From contig DDVW01000070.1 in assembly GCA_002345545.1 (NCBI GenBank), positions 90,711-154,710 of the forward strand: a DNA stretch of 64,000 nt, written 5' to 3'. The stretch's first letter is position 1; each line of letters starts with the position of its first letter. The notes beneath the pieces were generated by a model, which was not told the origin of the DNA, did no database searches, and saw nothing but the letters and a program-made list of their open reading frames with translations. Below, one piece after another: positions 3,240 through 17,366 of this stretch. Made by a program: the position numbers and the translations under genes. The DNA comes from Stenotrophomonas sp. UBA2302 (GTDB lineage Bacteria; Pseudomonadota; Gammaproteobacteria; Xanthomonadales; Xanthomonadaceae).

Positions 3240-3243
<4 letters not shown>
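2608..3243 (-). CDS. Predicted lipoprotein between trpB and trpA (function unknown)
   Basis: This 211-residue protein starts with a positively charged segment, a hydrophobic stretch and a lipobox (LLAC, cysteine near residue 22), so it should be exported and lipidated. A Pro/Ala-rich linker follows. The rest is a soluble domain of about 140 residues with no motif I recognise. I chose the GTG at 3241-3243: it overlaps the trpB stop codon as GTGA and places the lipobox at a normal distance. The gene ends one base before trpA. It is thus locked into the trp operon by coupling on both sides, yet nothing in its sequence suggests a role in tryptophan synthesis. Its envelope location is inferred only from the signal. 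Confidence 0.8.
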
Positions 3244-4457
<1,214 letters not shown>

Positions 4458-4487
4458 GGCAATCACGGCAGCAATAAACAGGACTGC

Positions 4488-4555: not shown

Positions 4556-4671
4556 AAAAAGCGACAGGACAGCTGTTTTCCACAGCGAAGCCGCCCGAAG
4601 GATGGCGCAGGGCCGATTTTCGCTCCTGCAAAACCGGTATTCCCGCCATCCATGGCGGTCAGATGTGCGCC

Positions 4672-5562
4672 ATGAGCGACCATGCCCTGCCCTCGCTCAA
4701 CGCCCTGCGCGCTTTCGAGGCCGCCGCGCGCCTGCGCAGCGTCAGTCTGGCCGCCACCGAGCTGCACGTCACCCACGGTGCGGTCAGCCGCCAGCTGCGA
4801 CTGCTTGAGGAGGAGCTGGGATTGGCGCTGTTCGAACGCGATGGCCGCGGCATCCGCCCCAGCGCCGCCGGCCATCGCCTGCTGGAGGCCAGCTCGGCGG
4901 CATTCGCGCAGATCGGTAACTGCGTGGCGGCGCTGCGCCGGCCGCAGCGCGACGAGGCCTTCGTGCTCGGCTGCCCGGGCAGCATCCTCGCCCGCTGGAT
5001 GATCCCGCGCCTGCACAACCTGCAGCGCGACCTGCCGCAGTTGACACTGCACCTGGCGGCGCAGGAAGGCGACTTCGCTCCGCGCCTGGACGGCCTGGAT
5101 GCCGCGCTGATGCTGGGACAGGCGCCGTGGCCGGAAGACTGGCAGGTGCACATACTGGCAACCGAGCGGATCGGCCCGGTGTTCAGCCCGACCATGCCCG
5201 GTGCGGACGAGCTGGCGCGGCTGCCGCTCCATGCCCTCCATGACCACGCCCTGCTGCACACCCGTTCACGCCCGCAGGCCTGGCCGACGTGGGCCGCGCT
5301 CAAAGGTATCGACCACCAGCACCTGCGCTACGGCACCGGTTTCGAGCATCTGTATTACCTGCTGGAAGCGGCTGTCGCCGGACTGGGAGTGGCCATCGCA
5401 CCACAGCCACTGGTCGCCGGGGAACTTGCCAGCGGCCGCCTGATCGCGCCCTGGGGCTTTGTCGATACCGAAGGCTGCTGGGCGCTGTGCACGGCGGGAG
5501 GGCGCGAAGATCCGCGGACAGCCATGCTCGCCAACTGGCTGGAAAAACAGCTGGCCCGATAG
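4672..5562 (+). CDS. LysR-family transcriptional regulator, TrpI/GcvA-like
   Basis: An N-terminal winged helix-turn-helix (residues about 5-64, with LNALRAFEAAARL and VSRQLRLLEEELG) is followed by a periplasmic-binding-protein-like effector domain to the end. The opening PSLNALRAFEAAAR is characteristic of the GcvA/TrpI/AmpR group. The gene is divergent from trpB, and the space between holds a perfect LysR-type dyad, so a TrpI-like role (activating trpB, possibly in response to indole-glycerol phosphate) is a reasonable inference. I placed the start at 4672 by comparison with family N-termini; an ATG three codons upstream is possible. Without a phylogeny I would not assign the name trpI. Confidence 0.85.
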   Translation: MSDHALPSLNALRAFEAAARLRSVSLAATELHVTHGAVSRQLRLLEEELGLALFERDGRGIRPSAAGHRLLEASSAAFAQIGNCVAALRRPQRDEAFVLGCPGSILARWMIPRLHNLQRDLPQLTLHLAAQEGDFAPRLDGLDAALMLGQAPWPEDWQVHILATERIGPVFSPTMPGADELARLPLHALHDHALLHTRSRPQAWPTWAALKGIDHQHLRYGTGFEHLYYLLEAAVAGLGVAIAPQPLVAGELASGRLIAPWGFVDTEGCWALCTAGGREDPRTAMLANWLEKQLAR

Positions 5563-5730: not shown

Positions 5731-6837
5731 TTACGCCGCGCCTGCCGGCCGGGTCGGCAACGCCAGCCGTTGCTGCACATCCTCGCGCAGGCGTGCAAGC
5801 TCCACCTCGGCCTGCTGCCGTTGCTGCATGCCTTCGCGATGGATGCTGCGCACCTCCTCCACCGTGGCGATCAGCTGCTCATGCACATGCCGCAGGGTCG
5901 CCACGTCGATCACCGCCCGCTGGTTGGCCTTGGCCGTTTCCACCGAGGTCTGCCGCATCAGGTCGGCATTGCGCCGCATCAGCTCGTTGGTGGCGTCGTC
6001 GATGGCGTTGGACAGGTCCACCGCGTTCTTCTGCTCGCCCAGCGACAGCTGGATGGCGAACTGGCGCTTCCACGAGGGAATGGTGATGTCGCGCACCGCA
6101 TTGAATTTTTCAATCAGCTGGATGGCGTTGGCCTGGATCAGCCGGATCATCGGCAGCGACTGGTCGGCGGCATGCTGCATCACCGTCAGGTCGCCCACCC
6201 GTTTGTCGAGCAGGCGGATGGCGTTGTCGACTTCGCCGCGACGGATGCGCGACTGCGGGTCTTCGTGGCCGGCCAAGGCATGCAGCTCGGCGTTGAGTCC
6301 GGCCAGCCGCTGTTTGCCGGCGGCAATGTGCAGGCCCAAGCTCTGCCGCTCGTCACGGACAATGGCGTGCATGCGGTCGAACTCGCCGACCCGCTGGCCC
6401 ATCTGTGACTGCTGCTCACCCACGTCGCGCATCAGCTGCTCGATCTGCTGGTTGGTATCGCTGAACTTCTGTACCAGCTCACCCTTGGACGCGCGCATGC
6501 GGTCGATCAGACCGCCGATCACCGGCACCTTGGAGCGCTCATGCAGGCTGTCCAGCTTCAGCGAGCGGGCAATACGCACCACCTCGCCCAGCTTGTCGCC
6601 GGATGCATCCAGGTCGCGGTTGCGCACGTGCTCAAGCAGCTGGCTGGAAAACACCGCGCTCTTGCCCGCCGCCTCGCGGCCGAACACGTGCAGGTTCCCC
6701 GGGCTGATGTCATCCAGCGTGCGCACGATCTGCGCGATCTGCGGGCGATCGGTCTCGGTCAGGCCCAGTGCCACCAGCGTGGTGGCGTCCACGTCCGCGG
6801 AGGGACCGGCCGGCAGTGGCAGGGTGTCCTGGGTCAT
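5731..6837 (-). CDS. TelA/toxic anion resistance family protein
   Basis: A 368-residue, almost wholly helical cytoplasmic protein without signal peptide or membrane segment. The central region (SRSKVPVIGGLIDR-like start, long helices, FNAVRDITIPSWKRQFAI, TNELMRRNADLMRQ) is typical of the TelA family named for plasmid tellurite/toxic anion resistance. Its biochemical activity is unknown in the family. It is the last gene of a five-gene minus-strand unit with an OB-fold membrane protein, a flotillin, a giant AAA ATPase and another helical protein. That context suggests a role in an ATPase- and membrane-raft-associated stress response, not tellurite chemistry. The proline- and alanine-rich N-terminus may be flexible. 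Confidence 0.85.
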   Translation of the reverse strand: MTQDTLPLPAGPSADVDATTLVALGLTETDRPQIAQIVRTLDDISPGNLHVFGREAAGKSAVFSSQLLEHVRNRDLDASGDKLGEVVRIARSLKLDSLHERSKVPVIGGLIDRMRASKGELVQKFSDTNQQIEQLMRDVGEQQSQMGQRVGEFDRMHAIVRDERQSLGLHIAAGKQRLAGLNAELHALAGHEDPQSRIRRGEVDNAIRLLDKRVGDLTVMQHAADQSLPMIRLIQANAIQLIEKFNAVRDITIPSWKRQFAIQLSLGEQKNAVDLSNAIDDATNELMRRNADLMRQTSVETAKANQRAVIDVATLRHVHEQLIATVEEVRSIHREGMQQRQQAEVELARLREDVQQRLALPTRPAGAA

Positions 6838-6901
6838 CAGCTGTTCTCCTTGAGCAAGACGCGCGACACATCGCGCGAGCAGTCAGTTGCGGGGCGGTTA
6901 T

Positions 6902-7615
6902 TCAACGCAGTCTAGCCTGCATGGCCATGATTTCATCGACAATGCGCGCCTGGGCTTCGGCCGCCTTGGCCAGTGCCGCGGGCATGCCTGCGGCGCGTTG
7001 CACGAGGGTCTGTTGTCGCCACAGCGGCAGCAGCACGTCGCGGATGCGCTGGTAGCGTTCGATCAACTCCACGCCCTGGGCATGCAGCAGGCGCAGCTGC
7101 CCGGCTTCGGTCTGCCGCAGCCGCGCCAGCCCACGCAGGTGCTGCAGGCGCCGTTGCAGCGCGGCCTGCGATACGGGTTCCATGGGTGCAGGCAGCGCCT
7201 CGCCGGCCGCAGCCCAGGCATCGATTGCCGCCACCGCCGCTTCCACCCGCACCAGTTGCTGCTGGTGCCGGTCGAGCTCCTGCTGCAATGCCTGCAAGCC
7301 GTCATCGGCGCGCAGCAGGCAGACATCCAGCTGTCCGGCCAGTTGTTCGGCCTGCACCTGCGCTTCGACATCACGGCCCAGCAGCCGCCCCCACAAACCC
7401 ACCGAGCGCCGGATCCGGCGGCCATCATGGGCCTGCATGGCCTGACGGACGTTGTCCATTTCCGCCACCAGCGCAGCGGCCGCCCCCGTCTTGGCAGGCG
7501 CGCCGATCAAGCGCTCCACCGCAGCCAGCAGCTCACCGCCATAGCCGGCCACCGCCAGCGGATCAGTGGTCTGCAAGGCCGGATGCGGCGGCGTGGGCAG
7601 CAGTGGATCAGGCAT
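6902..7615 (-). CDS. Helical protein of unknown function in the TelA/flotillin/ATPase module
   Basis: A 237-residue protein predicted to be mostly helical, rich in Ala, Gln, Leu and Arg, with no signal peptide. Repeated heptad-like stretches suggest coiled coil (residues 70-150). The segment LIERYQRIRDVLLPLWRQQTLVQ resembles the TelA segment LIEKFNAVRDITIPSWKRQFAIQ in the next gene, so it may be a shortened, diverged TelA relative. Its ATG overlaps the end of the ATPase gene by eight bases and it lies 64 bp before the TelA gene, so the three are likely translated from one message. No catalytic motif is visible. Confidence 0.7.
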   Translation of the reverse strand: MPDPLLPTPPHPALQTTDPLAVAGYGGELLAAVERLIGAPAKTGAAAALVAEMDNVRQAMQAHDGRRIRRSVGLWGRLLGRDVEAQVQAEQLAGQLDVCLLRADDGLQALQQELDRHQQQLVRVEAAVAAIDAWAAAGEALPAPMEPVSQAALQRRLQHLRGLARLRQTEAGQLRLLHAQGVELIERYQRIRDVLLPLWRQQTLVQRAAGMPAALAKAAEAQARIVDEIMAMQARLR

Positions 7616-10600
7616 CGCCCGGCGTGTCCTTGCCGTGGCTGCCCTGCTGGCCGGGCACCACGACGCTGCCGCCGTAGAAGTGGCGCATCAACGCTTCATC
7701 CAGCGCTTTTTCTTCGGGTGTCCGCGCCCGTCGCACACGCGGTGCGGACTTGGTCGTGCCGCCCTCCTTCGACAACCATTCCTGCAGCTGCGCCGCCAAT
7801 GCGGACAACGCATCACCGACCTGCCCTTGCCGTTGCTGGGCGGCGACCAGTGCCTGCAGCAACGGGACCAGATCCTGCATCGGCGTTGTGGGCGGAGGTA
7901 CGGCCGCCTGCATCACCGCCGCGGGGCGCTCGGCCACCGCCTGCAGCAAGGCGAGGATCTGCTCCCATGGTGCTTCCACTGCTGGCGTGGTTGCCGCCAC
8001 CTGCTCCGGCTCATTGTTGCGCAACCCCTGCAGGCCGCTGGCGATATCGGCCAACTGCGCCACGACGCGTGCGCCGGTATCGGCATCGTCGCCGCCCATC
8101 GCCTTGTCACGCATGAAGTCGCGCTTGATCTGCTCCCAGCGCGCCAGCTGCTGCGCATCGAGCACACCCCGCAGCTCGCCCAGTTTGAGCAGGTTTTCTT
8201 CCGAGCCACTGGTCAGCAGCTGCGACTCGCCCAGGTAGTGATCGGCGATCAGCTGCTGCAACTCGGCGGCATTCATCACCGGCGAGATCTTCTCCGACAG
8301 CTTGTTCATGTTGCGGTAGCTGCCCTGCAGGCGGAACGGTGGCTCGACGCGGTATTTGTCGGCCTGGGCGGCACTGGCGATGTACTGCTGGTTGACCCGG
8401 TAGACCACCTCGCGCACCTGCATCAGCCGCTGCAGGGTGGCGACGATCTCGTTGATCTCCGCGCCGCTGTAGGCATGGCTGAGCGCATTGGTGGACACCT
8501 CCTTGCCATTGGCCTTGTCGACCAGCAGGTAGAGATCGTCCAGGTCGCGGGTGGCCATTGGCGCCAGCACCTGGCTGGAGGTCAGGCTGTTCTCGATATA
8601 GCTGAGCTTGAACGCGTCTTCCATGCCGCCCAGCACATCGCCGAGGTTGTAGATGTCGGCGCGGTTGGCCAGCATGTCCGGCACCTTGAACACCTCGCCG
8701 GACTCGGTATACGGATTGCCGGCCATCACCACGCAGAACTTCTTGCCGCGCAGGTCATAGGTCTTGGTGCCGCCCTTCCACACGCCTTCGATACGGCGGG
8801 TGCCATCGCACAGGGAAATGAACTTCTGCAGGAATTCCGGATGGGTGTGCTGGATGTCGTCGACATACAGCATGGTGTTGTTGCCCATCTCCAGCGCCAG
8901 GTTGAGCTTGTGCAGCTCCTGCCGCGAGGTGGCGTCCGGCGCCTGTTCCGGATCCAGCGAGCGCACCTCATGCCCCAACGCCGGGCCATTGATCTTCATG
9001 AAAACCAGGCCCAGGCGGTTGGCCACGTACTCCATCAGGGTGGTTTTGCCGTAGCCGGGCGGGCTGATCATCATCAGCAGGCCCATCAGGTCGCTGCGCT
9101 TGTTCTCGCCCACCGTGCCCATCTGCTTGGCAAGGTTGTCACCGATGATCGGCAGGTAGACGTCGTTGATCAGCTTGTTGCGGACGAAGGAACTCAACGG
9201 CCGCGCCTGGAACTCACCCAGCCGCAGCGTCTCGCGCTCGCGCGCACTGATGCGCTGGCGCAGCGCCTGGTACTGCTCGAAGCCCGGCTGGAACTGGCGC
9301 CGGTGGGATTGCCAACGCTGCAGGAAGTCATCAACCGCCAACTGCAGATGGCCCTGGCTGATGCGGGCATGCTCGCCCAGCAGGCCGGCGACGTCGGCGA
9401 TCAAGGTCACCTCGCGCACCTGGCTGCGCAGATCGCGTTCGCCCAGCAGCATGGTCGCGGCTTCCGGCACATAGCCGGTCATCGCTGCGTACTTGCCCTG
9501 CCCACACATCGCCTGCAACCACTGCACCGCCTGCGCCCATTGCAACGTCAGGCGCTTGGACAGGCGCTGCAGGCTGCGATCGAAGGCATCGGCCTGGCCA
9601 GCCGCCTGCAACTGCTCGCGCAAGCCAGTCAGCAGCTGTCGCGCATAGCCACTGAAGGCGAAGGTCGGTTCGCCATTGGCCAGCTCGGCCAGCAGGTACT
9701 CCGCCGCCAGCGCCGGCATGCCGCTGTCGAACGGCAGCGCGTGCACCTGCTGGAATTCGACCAGCGCCAACGCGATCTCAACGCGCAAGGCCTCCAGCCC
9801 ATCCCGTACATTGAACAGCTGGGCGATGGCAAACGCACCGGCGGCGCGCTCCACCCACTGGCTGACGTTCTCGTGCTTGCCTTCGCGCGCCCAGAACAGC
9901 AGCGCCAAGGCACGTGGCGCGGCCGCATGTACCAGCGAACCGGCGGCCTGATACAGCGGCAACACCGCCTGCAGGATCAGGCTGGCATCGTGGTCGTGGA
10001 TGCCCTTTTCATAACCTTCGCGATAGCGCGGCGCGGCGAAGTCGCGTACCCGCTTGGCCAGCGCTTCGGGCTGCGCGGCCTCGCGCAGCAGCAGTTCGAC
10101 GCTTAGCCCATCGCGACTGTTGATGGCGGCATCCAGAAGCAGGCCGGCCAGGTACTCGCCGCGGTACAGCGATGGCGATTCCGAATCCAGCGTCACCGGC
10201 CAATACGCACGCAGCGCTTCCAGCTCCGGGTCAACGATGGTTTCGTAGTAGTCGGTGCCGGTGAGGTGCACGGCCAGGCCGTCGCCGCGCGGCAGGATGG
10301 TCAGGTCCAGCGGCTGGGTGTTGACGCTGAAGCGGTGCCGGCCCAAGCGGATGACATTGCCGCCACCCTCGAACAGATCGCTGCGGTCACGCAGCGCCCG
10401 CACCGCCTGATCGCGCACGCCCTTCAGCCGTGCTTCCACGTCATCAGCCTTGACGCTGTCCCTGTACTCGCGCAGGCGCTCGGCCAGCTCGCGCAGTTTC
10501 AGGATCAGCGGATCGCCGGCGAAGAACGCATTGAGCTCGTCAACCGTGGTGAAGCGCTCGGTGCGCTTGGCCAGGCCGTCGAGGATGCGGTTGGCCGCAT

Positions 10601-12956
10601 CCAGCACCGATTGCGCCTTGCGCTGGCGGGCATCCAGCAGGGTCTGCTTGTGCGACTCGAAGGTGTCCAGCAACTCCTCACGCTTGCTGAGGATGTCACC
10701 CAGGAACTGCTCGTGCTCGCCAAACTGGCTCTCCAGCTCTTCCAGCTGCACCATCAGGCGCGACAGTTGTTCGTCGGCGCGTTCCGGGTCCGTCGCCAGT
10801 CCCAGTGCGCTGGTGATGGCCTGGCTGAACAAGGAGAACTGCGCGCCAAACTGGGCCACGGCCTCGGCCGAGCCCAGCGAACGGCGACGCTGGTCGGCGC
10901 GTGCACGCGCCTGGTTGAGCTTGGCGTAGATGCCGGAGATGGCTTCCACCACGCGCGTACGCTGCGCGGCATCGTCGACCTTCAGGCCGGCCATCAGCTC
11001 GGACAGCATGTCCAGCTCGGCCGACATCGCCTGCATCTGCGCAATCTGTTCGGACAGCTGTCTGGCGGTCTGCGCCGCCTGCGCGCTGGCATCCAGCTCC
11101 TGCAGGCGTTCGTTGAACGGCTGCAGGGCCTTGTCGCCACCCAGGAACTCGCCCGCCGCCGCACCCACGCGGTCATGCGCCTCCTGCAGCGAGGTATTCA
11201 TCGCATCGATGGCGGCAACATCCACATAACGGAAGTCGCGCACGGTCAGCAGCCGTCCGCGCAGCTTGCCGATCTCGCCAAGGCTGTCAACGAACTCGCC
11301 GATCTTCGACCAGTTCTGCGGCTGCAGGCGGCCGAGCAGGGTCCTGTGCTGGCTGGTGACCTCGGCCATCGCCTGCGCCGACTGCTTGCGGATGCTCTCG
11401 ACCTTCTCGTACTCGTCGAGCATCGACTCGCCGGTCGCGCTGATCTCGCGCAGCAGCGTGGCGGCGCCGTCGCAGTGGGCGTCGTCCAGCCAATGATGGG
11501 CATCGAACAGGCGGCGCGCGTTGTGGGTCAGCAGCTCGTAACGTGCCAGCGACACTTCGCGACTGTCGATCTCGCGCCCCAAGTCCAGCAGGTTGGAGAT
11601 GCCACGCACCAGTTCGGCATTGCCGATGCGGGCCATGAAACTGGTGCCGGCCTGGCGGTGGGCAGCGAACTCGTCGCTGCTGAACGGGGTCTGCCAGACC
11701 TGCATCGGATGGATGCGGGTGGGCTCCCCGTTCTCGGCATTGAACAGCACCATGCGGCCATCGCGCAGGAAGGCGTAGCCCAGCCCGAACACCGGGTTCT
11801 GCAGCGCCCGCTGGATGCTGTTGTAGACGAACAGCGCCGACTTGCCGGCCTCGCGCTCGTAGAAGATGTACAGCATGTCCTCGCCGTTGGGCGAGCGGAC
11901 CGAGCGCTTGTACCTCATGCCCTGCATCGAGGCGTCGAACGCCTTGTGCTCGCCACTTTGCAGGTAGTAGCCGCCGGGGAAGATGATGCCGTGATCATCG
12001 GGCAGCTGCACGCAGGCCTGGACGATGGCGTCGTTGCGCACCACCTTGCCGGTCAGCGTGTTGTAGATCAGGCCGCGCCAGCTGTCCTCGCGGTAGGGCT
12101 GCACCTTGAGCAGGATCAGCGAGCCGACCCGGGCGAAATCGATGGTGGCATCGTCCACCGATTGCGTGCTGTCCTCGACCGGCTCGCTGTACACGCCCTG
12201 CCCGGTCTCGGTGTTGTTCTCCACCTTGATGGTGAGATTGCCACCGGTGGTCTCTACGAAGATGGTGTCGAGCAGGTTCAGGTGCGGGAAGCGGCCGCTG
12301 ACCAGCATGTCGCGCCCGGCGCGCATCCACTCGAAATCAAACGGGGCCGGCAAGGCGATGTCGCGCTCGCCGCGTGCGTCGATATAGGTCAACTCACCGC
12401 TGCTGGCCATGGCCCAGCGGAACACGCGCACATCGCTGCTGCGCTCGCCGATCTGGAACGCGGCCAGCAGCTTGCCGTCGCGCACGATCAGCTGCAGCAG
12501 GCGCGCGTGCTTGTAATAGGCGTACAGCTCGGAAAAATCGTGGACGAAGCCCGGCTGCGCCAGGAAACTGGTCTTCAGGTCCACCGGGGTGACGTCGTAG
12601 CCTTCGGCACCCTCCACCATGCGGTAGAGCCCGAACACATCCTCCACCCGGGTCTGCGTCTTCAGGCCGATGAAAACGTTGTAGCCGAACAGCAGCAGGT
12701 CATCGCCGACCTGGACGATGTCGCGGCCCACGCAGTTGTTCTCGGTGCGGATGCGGAAGCGTCCGATCACCTCCATGCGGCTGTCACCGAACTCCTGCAG
12801 GCGGCGCTGGTTCATCGCCTCCACCACCTGCCGCAGGCGCGCGCCCTGGTCGCTCAGGCGCTTGCGCAGCACCTCGTAGGCACCGCCCTGTGCCACCGCC
12901 TGGTCGGCGATGGACGCGCTGTCCAGCGGGCTTGCGCCCTCGTTGCTATCAGCCAT
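7608..12956 (-). CDS. Giant AAA ATPase of the 'DNA repair ATPase' (DUF3686-like) type
   Basis: A 1782-residue cytoplasmic protein. The N-terminal third (about 30-420) is beta-rich and repetitive, matching the DUF3686 type region of proteins labelled DNA repair ATPase. Residues about 450-830 are long charged helices and probably coiled coil. An AAA domain begins near residue 1290, with Walker A PPGYGKTT (about 1299-1306), Walker B MLYVDDIQ (about 1362-1369) and a sensor-like VVMAGNPYTESGE. A Lys/Arg-rich tail ends the protein. An AGGGAA ribosome binding site supports the start. The DNA repair label is historical; I see no nuclease or DNA-binding motif. It is 131 bp downstream of the flotillin gene and overlaps the next gene. 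Inference: a MoxR-like remodelling ATPase working with flotillin and TelA at the membrane. Confidence 0.85.
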   Translation of the reverse strand: MADSNEGASPLDSASIADQAVAQGGAYEVLRKRLSDQGARLRQVVEAMNQRRLQEFGDSRMEVIGRFRIRTENNCVGRDIVQVGDDLLLFGYNVFIGLKTQTRVEDVFGLYRMVEGAEGYDVTPVDLKTSFLAQPGFVHDFSELYAYYKHARLLQLIVRDGKLLAAFQIGERSSDVRVFRWAMASSGELTYIDARGERDIALPAPFDFEWMRAGRDMLVSGRFPHLNLLDTIFVETTGGNLTIKVENNTETGQGVYSEPVEDSTQSVDDATIDFARVGSLILLKVQPYREDSWRGLIYNTLTGKVVRNDAIVQACVQLPDDHGIIFPGGYYLQSGEHKAFDASMQGMRYKRSVRSPNGEDMLYIFYEREAGKSALFVYNSIQRALQNPVFGLGYAFLRDGRMVLFNAENGEPTRIHPMQVWQTPFSSDEFAAHRQAGTSFMARIGNAELVRGISNLLDLGREIDSREVSLARYELLTHNARRLFDAHHWLDDAHCDGAATLLREISATGESMLDEYEKVESIRKQSAQAMAEVTSQHRTLLGRLQPQNWSKIGEFVDSLGEIGKLRGRLLTVRDFRYVDVAAIDAMNTSLQEAHDRVGAAAGEFLGGDKALQPFNERLQELDASAQAAQTARQLSEQIAQMQAMSAELDMLSELMAGLKVDDAAQRTRVVEAISGIYAKLNQARARADQRRRSLGSAEAVAQFGAQFSLFSQAITSALGLATDPERADEQLSRLMVQLEELESQFGEHEQFLGDILSKREELLDTFESHKQTLLDARQRKAQSVLDAANRILDGLAKRTERFTTVDELNAFFAGDPLILKLRELAERLREYRDSVKADDVEARLKGVRDQAVRALRDRSDLFEGGGNVIRLGRHRFSVNTQPLDLTILPRGDGLAVHLTGTDYYETIVDPELEALRAYWPVTLDSESPSLYRGEYLAGLLLDAAINSRDGLSVELLLREAAQPEALAKRVRDFAAPRYREGYEKGIHDHDASLILQAVLPLYQAAGSLVHAAAPRALALLFWAREGKHENVSQWVERAAGAFAIAQLFNVRDGLEALRVEIALALVEFQQVHALPFDSGMPALAAEYLLAELANGEPTFAFSGYARQLLTGLREQLQAAGQADAFDRSLQRLSKRLTLQWAQAVQWLQAMCGQGKYAAMTGYVPEAATMLLGERDLRSQVREVTLIADVAGLLGEHARISQGHLQLAVDDFLQRWQSHRRQFQPGFEQYQALRQRISARERETLRLGEFQARPLSSFVRNKLINDVYLPIIGDNLAKQMGTVGENKRSDLMGLLMMISPPGYGKTTLMEYVANRLGLVFMKINGPALGHEVRSLDPEQAPDATSRQELHKLNLALEMGNNTMLYVDDIQHTHPEFLQKFISLCDGTRRIEGVWKGGTKTYDLRGKKFCVVMAGNPYTESGEVFKVPDMLANRADIYNLGDVLGGMEDAFKLSYIENSLTSSQVLAPMATRDLDDLYLLVDKANGKEVSTNALSHAYSGAEINEIVATLQRLMQVREVVYRVNQQYIASAAQADKYRVEPPFRLQGSYRNMNKLSEKISPVMNAAELQQLIADHYLGESQLLTSGSEENLLKLGELRGVLDAQQLARWEQIKRDFMRDKAMGGDDADTGARVVAQLADIASGLQGLRNNEPEQVAATTPAVEAPWEQILALLQAVAERPAAVMQAAVPPPTTPMQDLVPLLQALVAAQQRQGQVGDALSALAAQLQEWLSKEGGTTKSAPRVRRARTPEEKALDEALMRHFYGGSVVVPGQQGSHGKDTPGDA

Positions 12957-13087
12957 CGATTGTTCCCTGCCATGGCCCCCACCCGGCCGGTGGCGGAGCG
13001 GGCGCCATCATCCACGCGGGTCGCCGCTGCCAGACAGTGGCGACCCCGGTTGCACACCCGCGCACCAGCGCACGGGTGCATGCACAC

Positions 13088-15088
13088 TCAGCCGGCGTCG
13101 CTGGCCGCTGCGGCGTCATCGGCCAGCCGCCTGGCCGGCTTGCCGCGTGCGGCCATGTCCACGCCCAGGTAGCGCTGCATCAGGTCCTGCACGATCGGGC
13201 TCTTGTCGGTGAGGCCTTCGATCGAGCGGCCCAGCGACATCGCCTTGACCAGGTTCTCGAACATGCCGCCGTCGCCGCCCACCATGTCGATGTCGGCATT
13301 GCGCAACGCGCTGGCGATGACCTCGGCGTTCTCCTTGGAGATCTCCTTGCCGGCTTCCAGCGTGGCCAGGGCCTGCTTGAGGCCGGTATCCAACGTCATG
13401 CGGAACTCTTCATGACCGCGCGCGGTATCGCCCAGCGAATCGATCGCCTGGAACTTGCGGGTCAGACCGTCGGCTTCGGCAAACAGCTTCTTCTCGATCA
13501 CCGAGGCTTCGGCAACGCCCAGCGTTTCGGCGGCGGTGGCCTTGGCACGACCCATCTGTTCTTCGCCCTGCGCGCGTGCGGCCAGCTGCTCGGCCAGCAC
13601 CTTGGCTTCGGCGGTGCCCTGCTTGAGGTTGGCGTCGGCCATCGCATCGACCACGCGGGCCTCGGCGATGCCGACCTTCTCGATCGCCAGCGCACCGGCC
13701 TCCTTGACCTGCGCGTCGGCCAGACCCGGCGCCGCACGTTCGGCACGGATGCCCTCGGCCAGTGCCTTCTTGGCTTCGGCCTGCTTGCCGGCCGCATCGA
13801 ACTCGGCCTGCGCCAGCGTGGTGATCTCCACCGCCTTGTGCTTGGCAGCGGCTTCGGCGGCCTCGGCCTCCTTGACCTGCTTGAGCAGCGCCTCCTGCGC
13901 CTCGGCCTCGGCCTCGAGGATGGCCACCTGCTTCAGGCGATCGGCCTCGGACACCTGCCGCACTTCCTTGATGCGCTCTTCCTCCTGCGCCACGGTCTTG
14001 TCGATGGAGATGCGTTCGCGGGTGATGTTGGCCACGTCCATCTTGCCCTGCTCGACCACCTTGTCACGCTCCACGCCCTGCAGCTGCACCTCGCGGTCGG
14101 TGGTGACCTGCTCCAGCTGGCGCGCACGGGCGACGCGCTCGACCTCGATGGCCACGGCACGCTGGCGGTTCTGCTCGGCCACTTCCACTTCGCGCAGACG
14201 GTTCTGGTCACGGATGTCGATCAGCTGCTGCGCCTCGATGCGGGCGTTCTCGGACAGCTGGCGCTGCTCTTCCTGCACCTTGAGGGTCTCGGCTTCCTCG
14301 CGGGCGCGGATGGTTTCCACCTCGCGCTTCTGCCGCGCTTCGGCCTCGGCCTGCTGGCGCTCCAGCGCCAGCGTGGCTTCCTTGGCCTCGACGTTCTTCT
14401 TGGTGATGGCCAGGCGCTCGTTCTGCGCCAGCTCGTTGGTGATCACGTTCTGCGCGGCGGTCAGCTCGGTGATCTTGCGGATGCCTTCGGCGTCGAGGAT
14501 GTTGCTGGGGTCCAGCAGGTTCTTCGGCGTCTGTTCCAGGTAATCGATGGCCACGTCTTCCAGCGCATAGCCGTTGAGGTCGTTGCCGATCACCGCGATG
14601 ATCTCGTCACGGAACTCCTGGCGCTTCTCGAACAACTGGGTGAAGTCGAACTTCTTGCCCACCGTCTTCAGTGCTTCGGAGAACTTGGCGTTGAACAGTT
14701 CATCCACCGCGTGCTTGTCCGAGGCCCGATCCGCGCCGATGGCCTTGGCCACGCGCAGCACGTCGGCCTGGGTCTCGTTGACGCGCAGGTAGAAGGCCAC
14801 GGTGATGTCCGCGCGCATGTTGTCGCGGCAGATCAGGCCTTCCTTGCCACGGCGGTCCACCTGCAGCGTGATCAGGCTGATGCGCATGTGCTCGGCGCGG
14901 TACAGCACCGGGATGATCAGCGCGCCGGTGAAATGCACCTTCGGCGTGGAGCTCATGTCGTTGACGATCAGGGCGGTGCCCTGGTCGACCTTCTTGTAGA
15001 ACGCTTTGAACAGGCCTGCCAGCCCGAGGAAAAACACCAGCAGGATGCCTACGCCAATAATGAACGGGGCCAGCGCAGCTAGACTCAT
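13088..15088 (-). CDS. Flotillin family (SPFH) protein, YqiK-like
   Basis: A 666-residue membrane scaffold protein. One N-terminal membrane segment (residues about 5-28) is followed by an SPFH/band-7 domain (about 30-220, with GLICRDNMRADITVAFYLRV) and a very long Ala/Glu-rich helical region (about 240-560) typical of flotillins. Flotillins form oligomers in ordered membrane patches and gather partner proteins. The start overlaps the stop of the upstream OB-fold membrane protein gene as ATGA, the same pairing as E. coli yqiJ-yqiK. Downstream follow the giant ATPase and TelA genes. The role within this unit is not known. Confidence 0.9.
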   Translation of the reverse strand: MSLAALAPFIIGVGILLVFFLGLAGLFKAFYKKVDQGTALIVNDMSSTPKVHFTGALIIPVLYRAEHMRISLITLQVDRRGKEGLICRDNMRADITVAFYLRVNETQADVLRVAKAIGADRASDKHAVDELFNAKFSEALKTVGKKFDFTQLFEKRQEFRDEIIAVIGNDLNGYALEDVAIDYLEQTPKNLLDPSNILDAEGIRKITELTAAQNVITNELAQNERLAITKKNVEAKEATLALERQQAEAEARQKREVETIRAREEAETLKVQEEQRQLSENARIEAQQLIDIRDQNRLREVEVAEQNRQRAVAIEVERVARARQLEQVTTDREVQLQGVERDKVVEQGKMDVANITRERISIDKTVAQEEERIKEVRQVSEADRLKQVAILEAEAEAQEALLKQVKEAEAAEAAAKHKAVEITTLAQAEFDAAGKQAEAKKALAEGIRAERAAPGLADAQVKEAGALAIEKVGIAEARVVDAMADANLKQGTAEAKVLAEQLAARAQGEEQMGRAKATAAETLGVAEASVIEKKLFAEADGLTRKFQAIDSLGDTARGHEEFRMTLDTGLKQALATLEAGKEISKENAEVIASALRNADIDMVGGDGGMFENLVKAMSLGRSIEGLTDKSPIVQDLMQRYLGVDMAARGKPARRLADDAAAASDAG

Positions 15089-15771
15089 CAGTGCTTCTCC
15101 TTGCCAACTGATACTTGGGAAATGGGAATGTCCAACGTGGGCAGGTCGGCTTCGCCAACCACCAGGTAATGATTGTGTTGCGGCAGGTACCGGACCAGGC
15201 GCACGCGCTCACCGCGCTCGAAACGGCTGCCAGGTTGCGCACGCACCTGCAGGATCAGGCCGGCCCCGCCATCATCGATGGTGGCGTAGCCATGCCCGGC
15301 GGTGACTTCAGGCGAGGACACCTGCCCGACTTTGCCGAGGATGTTTTCCTGGGGCACCGCGCGCAGCTTCATGAGGAAACGGCGGATCGGCCGCAGCACC
15401 CAGGACGAGACGATCGCCCCCGGAATCAGCGCGGCAAACGCCACGCCGGTACCGATGCCCCAGCGCAGCAGGGCCGGCAGTGGCTGCAGGAAGAACAGCT
15501 GCACCAGGTAGGTGATCGACCAGCCGAAGAACGCAAGCAACAACACCACCAGCATGGTCGGCGCGCCGCCAAGGCCCATGCGCGCGAACATGCCCGCCAG
15601 ACCGCTGGCACCATCAGCGCCACTATGGAAATCGGCACCGTCACCGCTGCCAATGCCGCCCTCGTCGATGATGCCGGTGGCGGCAAGCATCCAGTAGATG
15701 ACCGCAAAGCACAGCACAACGCTGTACGGCAGCGTCGGATAGGACAGCGCTACTTCCAGAAATTCCGCCAT
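15088..15771 (-). CDS. OB-fold membrane protein, YqiJ/NfeD-like partner of flotillin
   Basis: A 227-residue protein with three predicted membrane helices (about 15-33, 72-94 and 102-126) and a cytoplasmic or periplasmic C-terminal beta domain (about 143-205) resembling the OB fold of NfeD/YqiJ proteins. Such proteins are nearly always encoded next to flotillins and are thought to be their membrane partners. I chose MAEFLEVALSYPTLPYSV at 15771 as the start since it begins with a plausible membrane topology, rather than a start 14 codons upstream. It is the first gene of the five-gene module; the preceding 159 bp before trpF would carry its promoter. Confidence 0.8.
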   Translation of the reverse strand: MAEFLEVALSYPTLPYSVVLCFAVIYWMLAATGIIDEGGIGSGDGADFHSGADGASGLAGMFARMGLGGAPTMLVVLLLAFFGWSITYLVQLFFLQPLPALLRWGIGTGVAFAALIPGAIVSSWVLRPIRRFLMKLRAVPQENILGKVGQVSSPEVTAGHGYATIDDGGAGLILQVRAQPGSRFERGERVRLVRYLPQHNHYLVVGEADLPTLDIPISQVSVGKEKH

Positions 15772-15930: not shown

Positions 15931-16596
15931 TCAGGCTGCCGGCTCAACCTCGGCAACATCGGCACGACGCACTTCCTCGACAAAGCGGCGCATCCTGTCG
16001 CCATCCTTCAGGCCCGGCGCCGATTCGATGCCGCTGGAGACATCCACGCCCCACGGGCGGGTGGCGATGAGCGCCTCGTACACGTTCTCCGGCCGGATGC
16101 CGCCGGCCAGCAGATATGGCCGCTGCATGCCCGGCGGAATCTGCGACCAGTCGAATGCCACGCCGGTACCGCCACTGCCGCCGGCCGAGTGGCTGTCGAA
16201 CAGGAATCCGACCGCGTGCGGATACAGCTGCTGCAGTCCACGCGCGCTGACCTCGGCATCGCCCCCCATCGCAATCGCCTTCAGGTATGGCAGGTTGAAA
16301 CTGCGGCAGAAGCCGTCATCCTCGTCGCCATGGAACTGCAACACGGTGGGCCGCACCGCACGCAGCACCTCGCGCACTTCTTCGCGGCCATTGTTCTGGA
16401 ACAGCGCCACCACATCGACCAGCGGCGCGATCGCCTGGCGCATCGCCCGCGCTTCGGACGGCGCCACCCGGCGGCGGCTCTCCCTGGCGAAAATGAAGCC
16501 GACCGCGTCCACGCCCAGCTCGCTGGCCAGGCGGATATCGCCGGCACGGGTCATACCGCAGAACTTGATGCGGGTACGGAACAGCGTACGGCTCAC
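15931..16596 (-). CDS. trpF: Phosphoribosylanthranilate isomerase
   Basis: TrpF converts phosphoribosyl anthranilate into CdRP in tryptophan synthesis. The TIM-barrel signature RIKFCGMTR opens the protein, with the catalytic cysteine in FCGMT, and the phosphate-binding [10 protein letters not shown] and [10 protein letters not shown] motifs are near the end. The start is the GTG at 16594-16596, overlapping the truA stop codon as GTGA; this gives 221 residues, a little over the usual 205-210. trpF is normally followed by trpB, but here 10 kb of the flotillin/ATPase/TelA module and a LysR gene intervene. Confidence 0.95.
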
Positions 16597-17366
16597 AGCG
16601 TCACCTCGTCCGGCAATTTCCACTGTGCAGGATACAGCGGGCCGACGAACACCAGACCTTGCGGCGGCGCGGTCGGCCCGGCCAGGTTGCGGTCGCGTCC
16701 TGCCAGCACCTCGCCGATCCAGCTTTCCGGCTTCTCACCGGCCCCGACCATCAGCAGCGAGCCGACGATATTGCGCACCATGTGGTGCAGGAACGCATTG
16801 GCCTGCACATTGATTTCCACCAGCTCGCCATGACGGTGGACCGAGATCGCCTGCAGCTCACGGCGGGCATGCAGGGCCTGGCATTGCGCGCTGCGGAACG
16901 CGCTGAAGTCGTTCTCGCCCAGCAGCGCCTGCGCGGCGCGGTGCATGGCCGGTGTATCCAGCGGGCGCCGCTCCCAGCCCAGCGTCTGCCGGTACAGCGC
17001 CGGGCGGATCTGCCGGTTCATCAACCGGTAGCGGTAGCGCCGCGCCTGGGCCGAAAAACGCGCATTGAACTGTTCATCGACCGGCACACACCAGCGCACG
17101 CAGACCGAAGGTGGCAGGCGCGTGGTGGTCCCCAGAACCCAGCCGCGCGGCGTGCGCTCGACCTCGCTGTCAAAGTGCACCACCTGGCATTCGCCGTGCA
17201 CGCCGGCATCGGTACGGCCGGCACAGACCACATGGACCGGCGCATTGGCCACCGATGACAGCGCGTCCTGCAACGTCGCCTGCACACTGGCACAGCCGTG
17301 CTCACCGAGCTGCTGCCAGCCCTTGAATTCGCTGCCGTCGTATTCCACGCCCAGCGCATAACGCAT
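16593..17366 (-). CDS. truA: tRNA pseudouridine(38-40) synthase
   Basis: TruA modifies U38-U40 in the anticodon arm of many tRNAs. The catalytic aspartate is D53 in AGRTDAGVH. The downstream [17 protein letters not shown] motif is also diagnostic. The start [18 protein letters not shown] at 17366 gives 257 residues, the usual length; longer in-frame extensions upstream have no similarity to the family. truA overlaps trpF, as in many gammaproteobacteria where asd-fimV-truA-trpF-accD are linked. Confidence 0.96.

Follow-up and report, generated by a model that had tools for sequence, protein, structure and literature searches.

A KlaA-TelA Pair Behind a YqiJ-Flotillin-AAA+ ATPase Operon in Stenotrophomonas and Its Possible Relation to PspA

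The Five-Gene Module

The DNA stretch considered here (the window) comprises 64,000 nucleotides of Stenotrophomonas sp. UBA2302 (assembly GCA_002345545.1, contig DDVW01000070.1, positions 90,711 to 154,710) and harbors a module of five genes, which are transcribed in the order YqiJ-like gene, flotillin gene, giant AAA+ ATPase gene, KlaA-like gene, and TelA gene. The first three constitute the core of an operon that is already known, and the newer piece is the KlaA-TelA part. An earlier reading made from the letters and open reading frames alone (the sequence-only reading) had claimed five genes in one direction, which are real, and all five frames are intact. Their positions in the window are as follows:

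15088..15771, reverse strand: YqiJ-like membrane protein of 227 amino acids, with ATG at 15771; membership taken from homologues near flotillin
13088..15088, reverse strand: flotillin/SPFH protein of 666 amino acids, with a hydrophobic stretch at the N-terminus
7608..12956, reverse strand: giant AAA+ ATPase of 1782 amino acids; DUF3686 at 41-488, DUF7902 at 609-693, AAA+ motor at about 1241-1598
6902..7615, reverse strand: KlaA-like short TelA-superfamily protein of 237 amino acids, named from a profile alignment with IncP KlaA
5731..6837, reverse strand: TelA (KlaB-like) protein of 368 amino acids, PF05816 E=3.1e-70

The mechanically called open reading frame of the YqiJ-like gene starts at GTG, 15813, in place of the ATG chosen here at 15771. 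Its junction with the flotillin gene is TGATG, a 1-base overlap and not the 4-base ATGA overlap that had been claimed, while the reported overlap of the ATPase gene by the 237-amino-acid gene is borne out, the two sharing 8 bases. Relative to Stenotrophomonas humi, the ratio of nonsynonymous to synonymous rates (dN/dS) is about 0.21 for the YqiJ-like gene, 0.10 for flotillin, 0.11 for the ATPase, 0.33 for the KlaA-like gene, and 0.07 for TelA, and the five values relative to Xanthomonas chitinilytica are 0.20-0.48. That dN lies below dS in all five genes points to purifying selection on every one of them, weakest on the KlaA-like gene. Exactly this five-gene content, with nothing more, is found in four Stenotrophomonas loci, X. 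chitinilytica, and Luteimonas deserti (L008-L011, L013, and L030); L008 is the S. humi locus, and a close TelA record exists for S. rhizophila. The gene order is conserved far beyond chance, and a mere chance neighborhood was rejected on the strength of this conservation across loci; flotillin, ATPase, and TelA-type proteins are one co-inherited module in this lineage, as the sequence-only reading had it. No Rfam match at gathering score was obtained within the window.

The Core Operon and Its Published Description

Relatives of the ATPase operon occur in Deinococcus, Streptomyces, Hymenobacter, and Proteobacteria. A total of 99 ATPase loci were compared, namely 80 genome contigs, seven plasmid records, the window, and 11 fetched genome regions; the 80 genome loci are the best 80 of 541 confirmed, which favors close relatives, and the sample is enriched for the window's lineage. 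Flotillin and YqiJ-like genes accompany the ATPase gene in all 89 loci with at least 3.5 kilobases (kb) of upstream DNA; the ten loci with less than 3.5 kb were excluded, eight of which show no YqiJ and four of those eight no flotillin. The YqiJ-flotillin-ATPase trio recurred in 20 of 20 further loci (15 from the planctomycete phylum and five from the Pseudoalteromonas order, with the YqiJ-like gene of L150 cut by the contig end), and flotillin was positioned directly upstream of the ATPase gene in all 12 short planctomycete loci; in one of the further samples, the loci taken came from 27 of 29 genomes. In the 88 loci whose upstream sequence extends to 5.5 kb or more, PspA stands beside the trio in 57 and YjfI in 54, the one YjfI scanned being DUF2170 (CesT/Tir-like), and a phospholipase D (PLD) gene is present in 34 of the 87 loci that have 2.5 kb or more of downstream sequence.

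In its passages on this operon, the paper of Ravi et al. (2024; PubMed Central (PMC) record PMC11237479) described a band-7/flotillin protein, a novel AAA+ ATPase with a coiled coil and a beta-propeller, and a YqiJ/YuaF protein, which were said to occur alone or together with a CesT/Tir-PspA dyad and sometimes with phospholipase D. Since the core trio with its PspA partners was already published there, three of the five genes are not undescribed, and the system cannot be called undescribed as the sequence-only reading had proposed. The window shares the three core genes with the operon portrayed in those passages, and some of its relatives keep YjfI-PspA ahead and a PLD-family gene behind; in contrast, the window form is devoid of YjfI, PspA, and PLD (the CesT/Tir-PspA dyad is absent from window positions 1-25000) and possesses the KlaA-like gene and TelA. 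The word TelA has 0 occurrences in the main text of PMC11237479.

Two arrangements of the core trio deserve mention in their own right. On plasmid pQBR103 (L001, 4001-17205), YjfI, PspA, a rhomboid gene, DUF2491, DUF350, DUF1190, a glutathionylspermidine synthase family gene, a hypothetical (YqiJ-like) gene, SPFH, and the ATPase form one run, so that a single plasmid combines genes from two of the phage-shock (PSP) operon types distinguished by Ravi et al. In a locus of the Planctomycetota sample (L146, 4501-14840), three PspA-type genes surround the trio; the ATPase gene is immediately followed by one of these, on the side occupied by KlaA-TelA in the window.

Identity of the ATPase, Flotillin, and YqiJ-Like Protein

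The ATPase matches Pfam DUF3686 with E=1.3e-193, and DUF7902, AAA_5 (27.9 bits, cut-off 22), and AAA (26.2 bits, cut-off 21.2) are likewise above cut-off; of 7996 sequences scored, 6897 were homologues. Matches of SbcC and MukB type at residues 502-869 hint at a coiled coil, and the beta-propeller of the N-terminus is taken from the description in PMC11237479. When the modeled motor was submitted to a second-look structural alignment, CbbQ/NorQ structures occupied the top ten places, the tenth sharing its score of 13.0 with dynein. In contrast to the MoxR ATPases CbbQ and NorQ, the window motor is fused to about 1200 N-terminal residues, including DUF3686 and DUF7902. No VWA partner was noticed near the ATPase gene, although no VWA search over the neighborhoods was made.

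Against PADLOC-DB 2.0, the ATPase gave weak coiled-coil and P-loop matches (best E 1.6e-4) and the other four proteins gave none, so that the proposed role in phage defence finds no support there beyond those matches. A phage or virus origin was rejected, as no ATPase relative appeared among 50,697 phage records or when viral contigs were scanned with this one protein, a scan whose reach is limited to close relatives. One ATPase frame (G217:C42:208579-209916) is listed with one in-frame TGA.

The window flotillin and YqiJ-like protein show no Pfam match at E<=0.1, and their identities are taken from homologues through Pfam rows and annotations. Band_7 is matched in two of 29 flotillin homologue rows (best E 1.5e-8) and YqiJ_N in two of 32 YqiJ homologue rows (best E 0.0026), the latter being weak in Pfam and strong in position, and plasmid records label the relatives SPFH/flotillin and DUF1449. 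The window flotillin itself matches FloT weakly and QmcA with E 0.0033. By analogy with YqiJ, the C-terminus of the YqiJ-like protein may be of OB/NfeD type.

The KlaA-TelA Pair

The last gene is a TelA, scoring 237 bits against the PF05816 cut-off of 30. The 237-amino-acid protein reaches Pfam TelA only at E=0.0025 and 17.4 bits, below that cut-off; when its family profile was aligned with IncP KlaA by hhalign, a probability of 99.1 with E 4.9e-19 over 198 columns was obtained. A C-terminal P-x-W-[KR]-x-Q motif is common to KlaA, KlaB/TelA, and the 237-amino-acid protein and is readable in most rows. In IncP and related plasmids, the gene order is KlaA, KlaB (=TelA), and KlaC. From the profile match and this gene order, it follows that the window pair is KlaA plus KlaB in the same order without KlaC; the KlaC profile matched only the five klaABC loci L088-L092 and no module. 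The KlaA-like nature of the 237-amino-acid protein, the pairing as in IncP KlaA-KlaB, and the PspA pattern described below had escaped the sequence-only reading, which called this protein TelA-like.

According to passages of PMC5696584, KlaA and KlaB are homologous, and KlaA, KlaB, and KlaC are all needed for FiwB fertility inhibition. The module resembles this plasmid system (kilA operon/FiwB) in placing a KlaA-like gene before KlaB/TelA and in having its nearest TelA relatives there in the tree, and differs from it in lacking KlaC, in being chromosomal, and in standing behind a flotillin-ATPase operon. A KlaA-like gene is located behind the ATPase gene in 19 of the 87 loci with sufficient downstream sequence, and TelA is present in 19 of these 19. 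Four-base overlaps are estimated between ATPase and KlaA in 14, and between KlaA and TelA in 13, of the 19 modules. A Vibrio gene of 234 amino acids was tried as a homologue of the 237-amino-acid protein and rejected; it is actually a PLD-family protein, though TelA comes after it. In Lysobacter xinjiangensis (L012, 4539-5366), a second KlaA-like gene lies upstream of YjfI-PspA, and KlaA-like genes thus stand on both sides of that operon.

The structural model of TelA (mean predicted local distance difference test score 71.7) consists of helices at 110-188, 194-307, and 313-359. When solved structures were searched by profile, helical chains were matched only weakly (best E 0.0017).

Distribution and History of TelA

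Among the same 87 ATPase loci, TelA is found in 21. The sequence-only reading had held that the genes would be neighbors by chance if relatives of the ATPase usually lacked flotillin or TelA; the flotillin link held wherever it could be judged (89/89 and 20/20), and the TelA link does not extend to most relatives. The fullest operons, which run YjfI-PspA-YqiJ-flotillin-ATPase-KlaA-TelA-PLD, belong to L. xinjiangensis (L012) and to six further genomes of the family (L102, L103, L105, L106, L109, and L111).

In the family of S. humi, 198 genomes were sampled, of which 44 carry the ATPase and 18 carry TelA above cut-off, all 18 with the ATPase (Fisher p=6.7e-14, kinship not corrected). In 14 of the 18, about 5-6 kb separate the ATPase domain match from a TelA downstream of it on the same strand (positions compared by eye), and the remaining four hold a lower-scoring TelA elsewhere. 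The loci of 12 of the 14 TelA-adjacent genomes (including G001 = L008 and G005 = L012, without G138 and G209) and of three of the four non-adjacent ones were examined. The Pseudoalteromonas order sample of 247 genomes contained 23 with the ATPase, seven with TelA, and two with both, the genes being adjacent in G285 and about 71 kb apart in the other; the loci of all seven TelA genomes over cut-off and of five further genomes of the 23 were taken, and G285, G014, and G015 among the 23 correspond to L093, L062, and L064. The class sample of 274 genomes contained seven with the ATPase, 27 with TelA, and one with both, on separate contigs; 20 of its 29 TelA places over cut-off were taken. Among the loci and genomes examined, ATPase-adjacent TelA was seen only in Lysobacteraceae and one Vibrio-side branch (L005 and L093).

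On an ATPase tree of 53 loci chosen by hand from the 99 (all 21 with TelA plus 32 others), TelA needs three changes and PspA nine. The three are read as a probable gain in Lysobacteraceae, a probable gain on the Vibrio campbellii/G285 branch, and a probable loss in the copy on a Deinococcus plasmid. In the TelA tree, the module proteins of Lysobacteraceae cluster next to IncP KlaB as a single group, though without strong support (74/100). Two other TelA proteins cluster with that of the Vibrio side (96/90), and one of these two, L097, adjoins an SPFH gene. The separate TelA groups together with the ATPase tree demonstrate that TelA entered the same operon at least twice: Lysobacteraceae gained the KlaA-TelA pair, and the Vibrio-side branch gained TelA alone.

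The Deinococcus plasmid ATPase (L002) falls within the Lysobacteraceae group on a long branch. The flotillin of this Deinococcus actinosclerus plasmid is 68.6% identical to that of the window, with 57.9% for Proteus and 48.9% for a Pseudomonas plasmid. The ATPase placement, long branch included, and this identity suggest a transfer between phyla without KlaA-TelA.

Divergence and Absence of PspA

When operon PspA genes were paired to ATPase positions by eye, one was found in 11 of the 14 TelA operons and in 22 of the 30 remaining ATPase genomes; of the eight remaining genomes without it, G141 and G190 are cut by contig ends. The Pfam score of PspA is 25-77 bits in the 11 TelA operons versus 129-185 bits in the 22 without adjacent TelA, ranges that do not overlap (Mann-Whitney p=2e-6) in what is in essence a comparison of one clade with others. 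Identities were compared among 12 TelA operons, four Lysobacteraceae loci without TelA, and four Pseudomonas loci. The mean PspA identity is 34% between the TelA operons and either comparison group and 61% between those two groups, and the same three comparisons gave 68, 66, and 70% for the ATPase, 47, 43, and 45% for YqiJ, 55, 51, and 61% for YjfI, and 66, 67, and 83% for flotillin. The diverged PspA has an open frame and keeps its N-terminal segment in 12 of 12 examined, by which the N-terminal loss hinted at by truncated profile matches was rejected.

No PspA was detected anywhere by profile search in eight TelA-operon genomes, G001 and G007 being the nearest relatives among these; six had been picked because their operon is without PspA, and G138 and G209 were picked unknowingly. 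Six genomes with an operon PspA hold only that one PspA. This divergence and absence are the pattern that would be expected if KlaA-TelA had taken the place of PspA on the scaffold.

TelA Beside SPFH Genes in Other Operons

In the 20 TelA loci of the class sample, which is gammaproteobacterial, no flotillin-ATPase operon occurs within the stretch read. An XpaC-like gene precedes TelA in 16 of the 20 (two scanned: PF10112), an SPFH-cluster gene comes right after TelA in eight (two scanned: Band_7_1, E 2e-98 and 2e-101), and a zinc-ribbon-like gene is present in six, five of them with the SPFH gene; the Pfam scans covered three of nine SPFH-cluster members, two XpaC-like proteins, and one zinc-ribbon-like protein, which was below Pfam cut-offs. 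The Band_7_1 type of SPFH protein differs from the module flotillin. Taking the Lysobacteraceae operon, the Vibrio-side operon, and XpaC-TelA-Band_7_1 together, TelA meets SPFH genes in three gene contexts. The order XpaC-TelA-SPFH recurs in L124-L143 and L097, and two scanned SPFH members carry GYF_2.

A 2012 comparative-genomics paper on Ter and TelA systems (Anantharaman, Iyer, and Aravind) may already treat TelA neighborhoods. Open-licence full text in PMC contained nothing on DUF3686, on TelA with flotillin and AAA, or on TelA with SPFH, and brought TelA and flotillin together only in a review of type VII secretion (PMC10765036). Of the four papers in the same set that combine at least three of TelA, XpaC, SPFH, PspA, band 7, and toxic anion resistance, none links TelA to SPFH, as judged from their listing.

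Two described systems offer a comparison. According to passages of PMC8581546, PspA of Bacillus subtilis depends on the SPFH protein YdjI for its recruitment to the membrane. As presented there, the pspA-ydjGHI system resembles the module in that an SPFH protein acts with a helical peripheral membrane protein, and differs in that the client is PspA and that the operon contains neither a giant ATPase nor TelA. In Listeria, passages of PMC12791056 state that the XpaC-TelA pair (lmo1966-1967) is LiaSR-regulated and modestly upregulated with PSP genes by bacteriocin, and, citing Collins et al. 2010, that a TelA mutant is nisin-sensitive. These XpaC-TelA operons, which are similar to B. subtilis XpaC and YaaN, share with the window the TelA family and, going by those passages, an envelope-stress link in Listeria, whereas the partner is XpaC (PF10112) there and KlaA in the window.

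Flanking Genes

The genes bordering the module lie outside it and are given for context:

15931..16623, reverse strand: trpF (Pfam), upstream flank
4663-5562, forward strand: divergent LysR gene, between the module and trpB
3240..4466, reverse strand: trpB, downstream flank

The genes trpF and trpB flank the module in the window, in four Stenotrophomonas loci, and in X. chitinilytica (L008, L009, L011, L013, and L030).

Proposed Model and Alternatives

As a family, YqiJ and flotillin proteins build inner-membrane scaffolds. The reading favored here, which is given about an even chance of being right, is that the module represents a lineage-specific variant of the PSP-linked YqiJ-flotillin-AAA+ operon in which KlaA and TelA serve as alternative PspA-type effectors or clients in envelope protection. 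YqiJ and flotillin would form an SPFH scaffold in the inner membrane, and the giant AAA+ ATPase would be tethered to it as a partner, because the gene linkage is invariant. The helical KlaA and TelA would be gathered at the stressed membrane by the scaffold, presumably by physical recruitment, and the ATPase may assemble, disassemble, or activate them. They might then bind and stabilize the membrane or a membrane complex, as PspA does elsewhere, in response to a stress that is here presumed. The membrane-stress interpretation advanced by the sequence-only reading fits the evidence. A bolder form of the proposal, that TelA/KlaB and KlaA are a second, PspA-independent client class of SPFH scaffolds and that PspA has been displaced altogether in one lineage, is put forward tentatively and at somewhat less than even chances.

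Several observations weigh against the client reading. TelA is missing from 66 of the 87 ATPase operons, and its co-occurrence with the ATPase is not above chance in the order (Fisher p=0.13) or class (p=0.52) sample, so that the two are strongly associated in Lysobacteraceae but not in general, and a general co-occurrence outside that family was dismissed as not significant. PspA is retained in 12 of the 21 TelA operons (seven with PLD and five without), which renders PspA and TelA compatible and not exclusive. Flotillin (66.5 versus 83.3%) and YjfI (54.6 versus 61.3%) diverged in the TelA lineage too, so that the front of the operon may have changed as a whole. Lysobacteraceae are essentially one clade, so that common descent alone may explain why the divergence of PspA and the gain of TelA go together, and a PspA diverged past the reach of the profile could be missed, the weakest one found having 25 bits (G196). 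The TelA model, of moderate confidence, revealed no significant structural relative, PspA, Vipp1, and ESCRT-III being missing from the listed rows, and the structural comparison lent no support to an ESCRT-III/PspA fold for TelA. The AAA+ motor appears nearest to the MoxR type in the second-look alignment; in Foldseek's own ranking, ClpB/Skd3 and RuvB chains lead and a CbbQ comes 43rd, by which the assignment is to be taken as provisional.

It is conceivable, and judged rather unlikely, that KlaA-TelA came from a plasmid as cargo with a separate function (inhibition of fertility, interference with plasmids or phages, or tolerance of tellurite), settled behind the ATPase gene, and is only co-transcribed with it. 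Such an origin would agree with the pair being nearest to IncP KlaA-KlaB, with the fertility inhibition conferred by IncP KlaA, KlaB, and KlaC according to the passages of PMC5696584, and with the KlaA-like gene being the fastest-evolving of the five relative to S. humi (dN/dS about 0.33), whereas KlaC, needed for the plasmid phenotype, is in no module, TelA twice joined the same operon place and is tied to a different SPFH gene elsewhere, and PspA diverges in the same lineage. The pair could alternatively act as accessory regulators or adaptors of the ATPase, like the VWA proteins of other MoxR ATPases, with the loss of PspA unrelated; the lead of MoxR types in the second-look alignment, the presence of PspA and TelA together in 12 of the 21 TelA operons, and the overlap of the ATPase gene by the gene directly after it are in line with this, yet PspA diverges in precisely these operons and 26 of the 27 class-sample TelA genomes are without this ATPase, and the adaptor role is considered unlikely.

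Far less probable is a pore-like or membrane-inserting role, in which TelA and KlaA would be helical effectors of ClyA/Ahl type restrained by the scaffold and the ATPase: the best second-look rows of the TelA model were indeed an HR1 mimic, ClyA, and Ahl proteins, and these lie within the noise for helical bundles. That the module is a DNA-repair machine, in keeping with the database name "DNA repair ATPase" carried by Pfam DUF3686 and many records, is the most improbable of all; a weak RuvB P-loop similarity in sequence and the RuvB chains near the top of the Foldseek ranking speak for it, whereas the genes that invariably accompany the ATPase are those of a membrane scaffold, and the second-look alignment is headed by MoxR types, with no RuvB among the 50 rows shown. 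The DNA-damage role raised by the sequence-only reading has no support beyond the annotation label and that weak P-loop similarity.

Phenotypes involving tellurite, nisin, and fertility inhibition are recorded for TelA and KlaA/KlaB, which have, to our knowledge, no agreed activity. With TelA and its partner in a fixed place after the flotillin scaffold and its AAA+ motor, and with PspA diverging alongside, the function of TelA becomes concretely testable, which raises the questions of whether TelA binds SPFH proteins, is remodeled by the ATPase, and replaces PspA at the damaged membrane. The labels "DNA repair ATPase" and "toxic anion resistance", which stand on many records of these genes, are thereby put in question. 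If the proposal of KlaA and TelA as clients of SPFH scaffolds is true, "tellurite resistance" and the plasmid KilA/FiwB phenotypes would be by-products of acting on the membrane.

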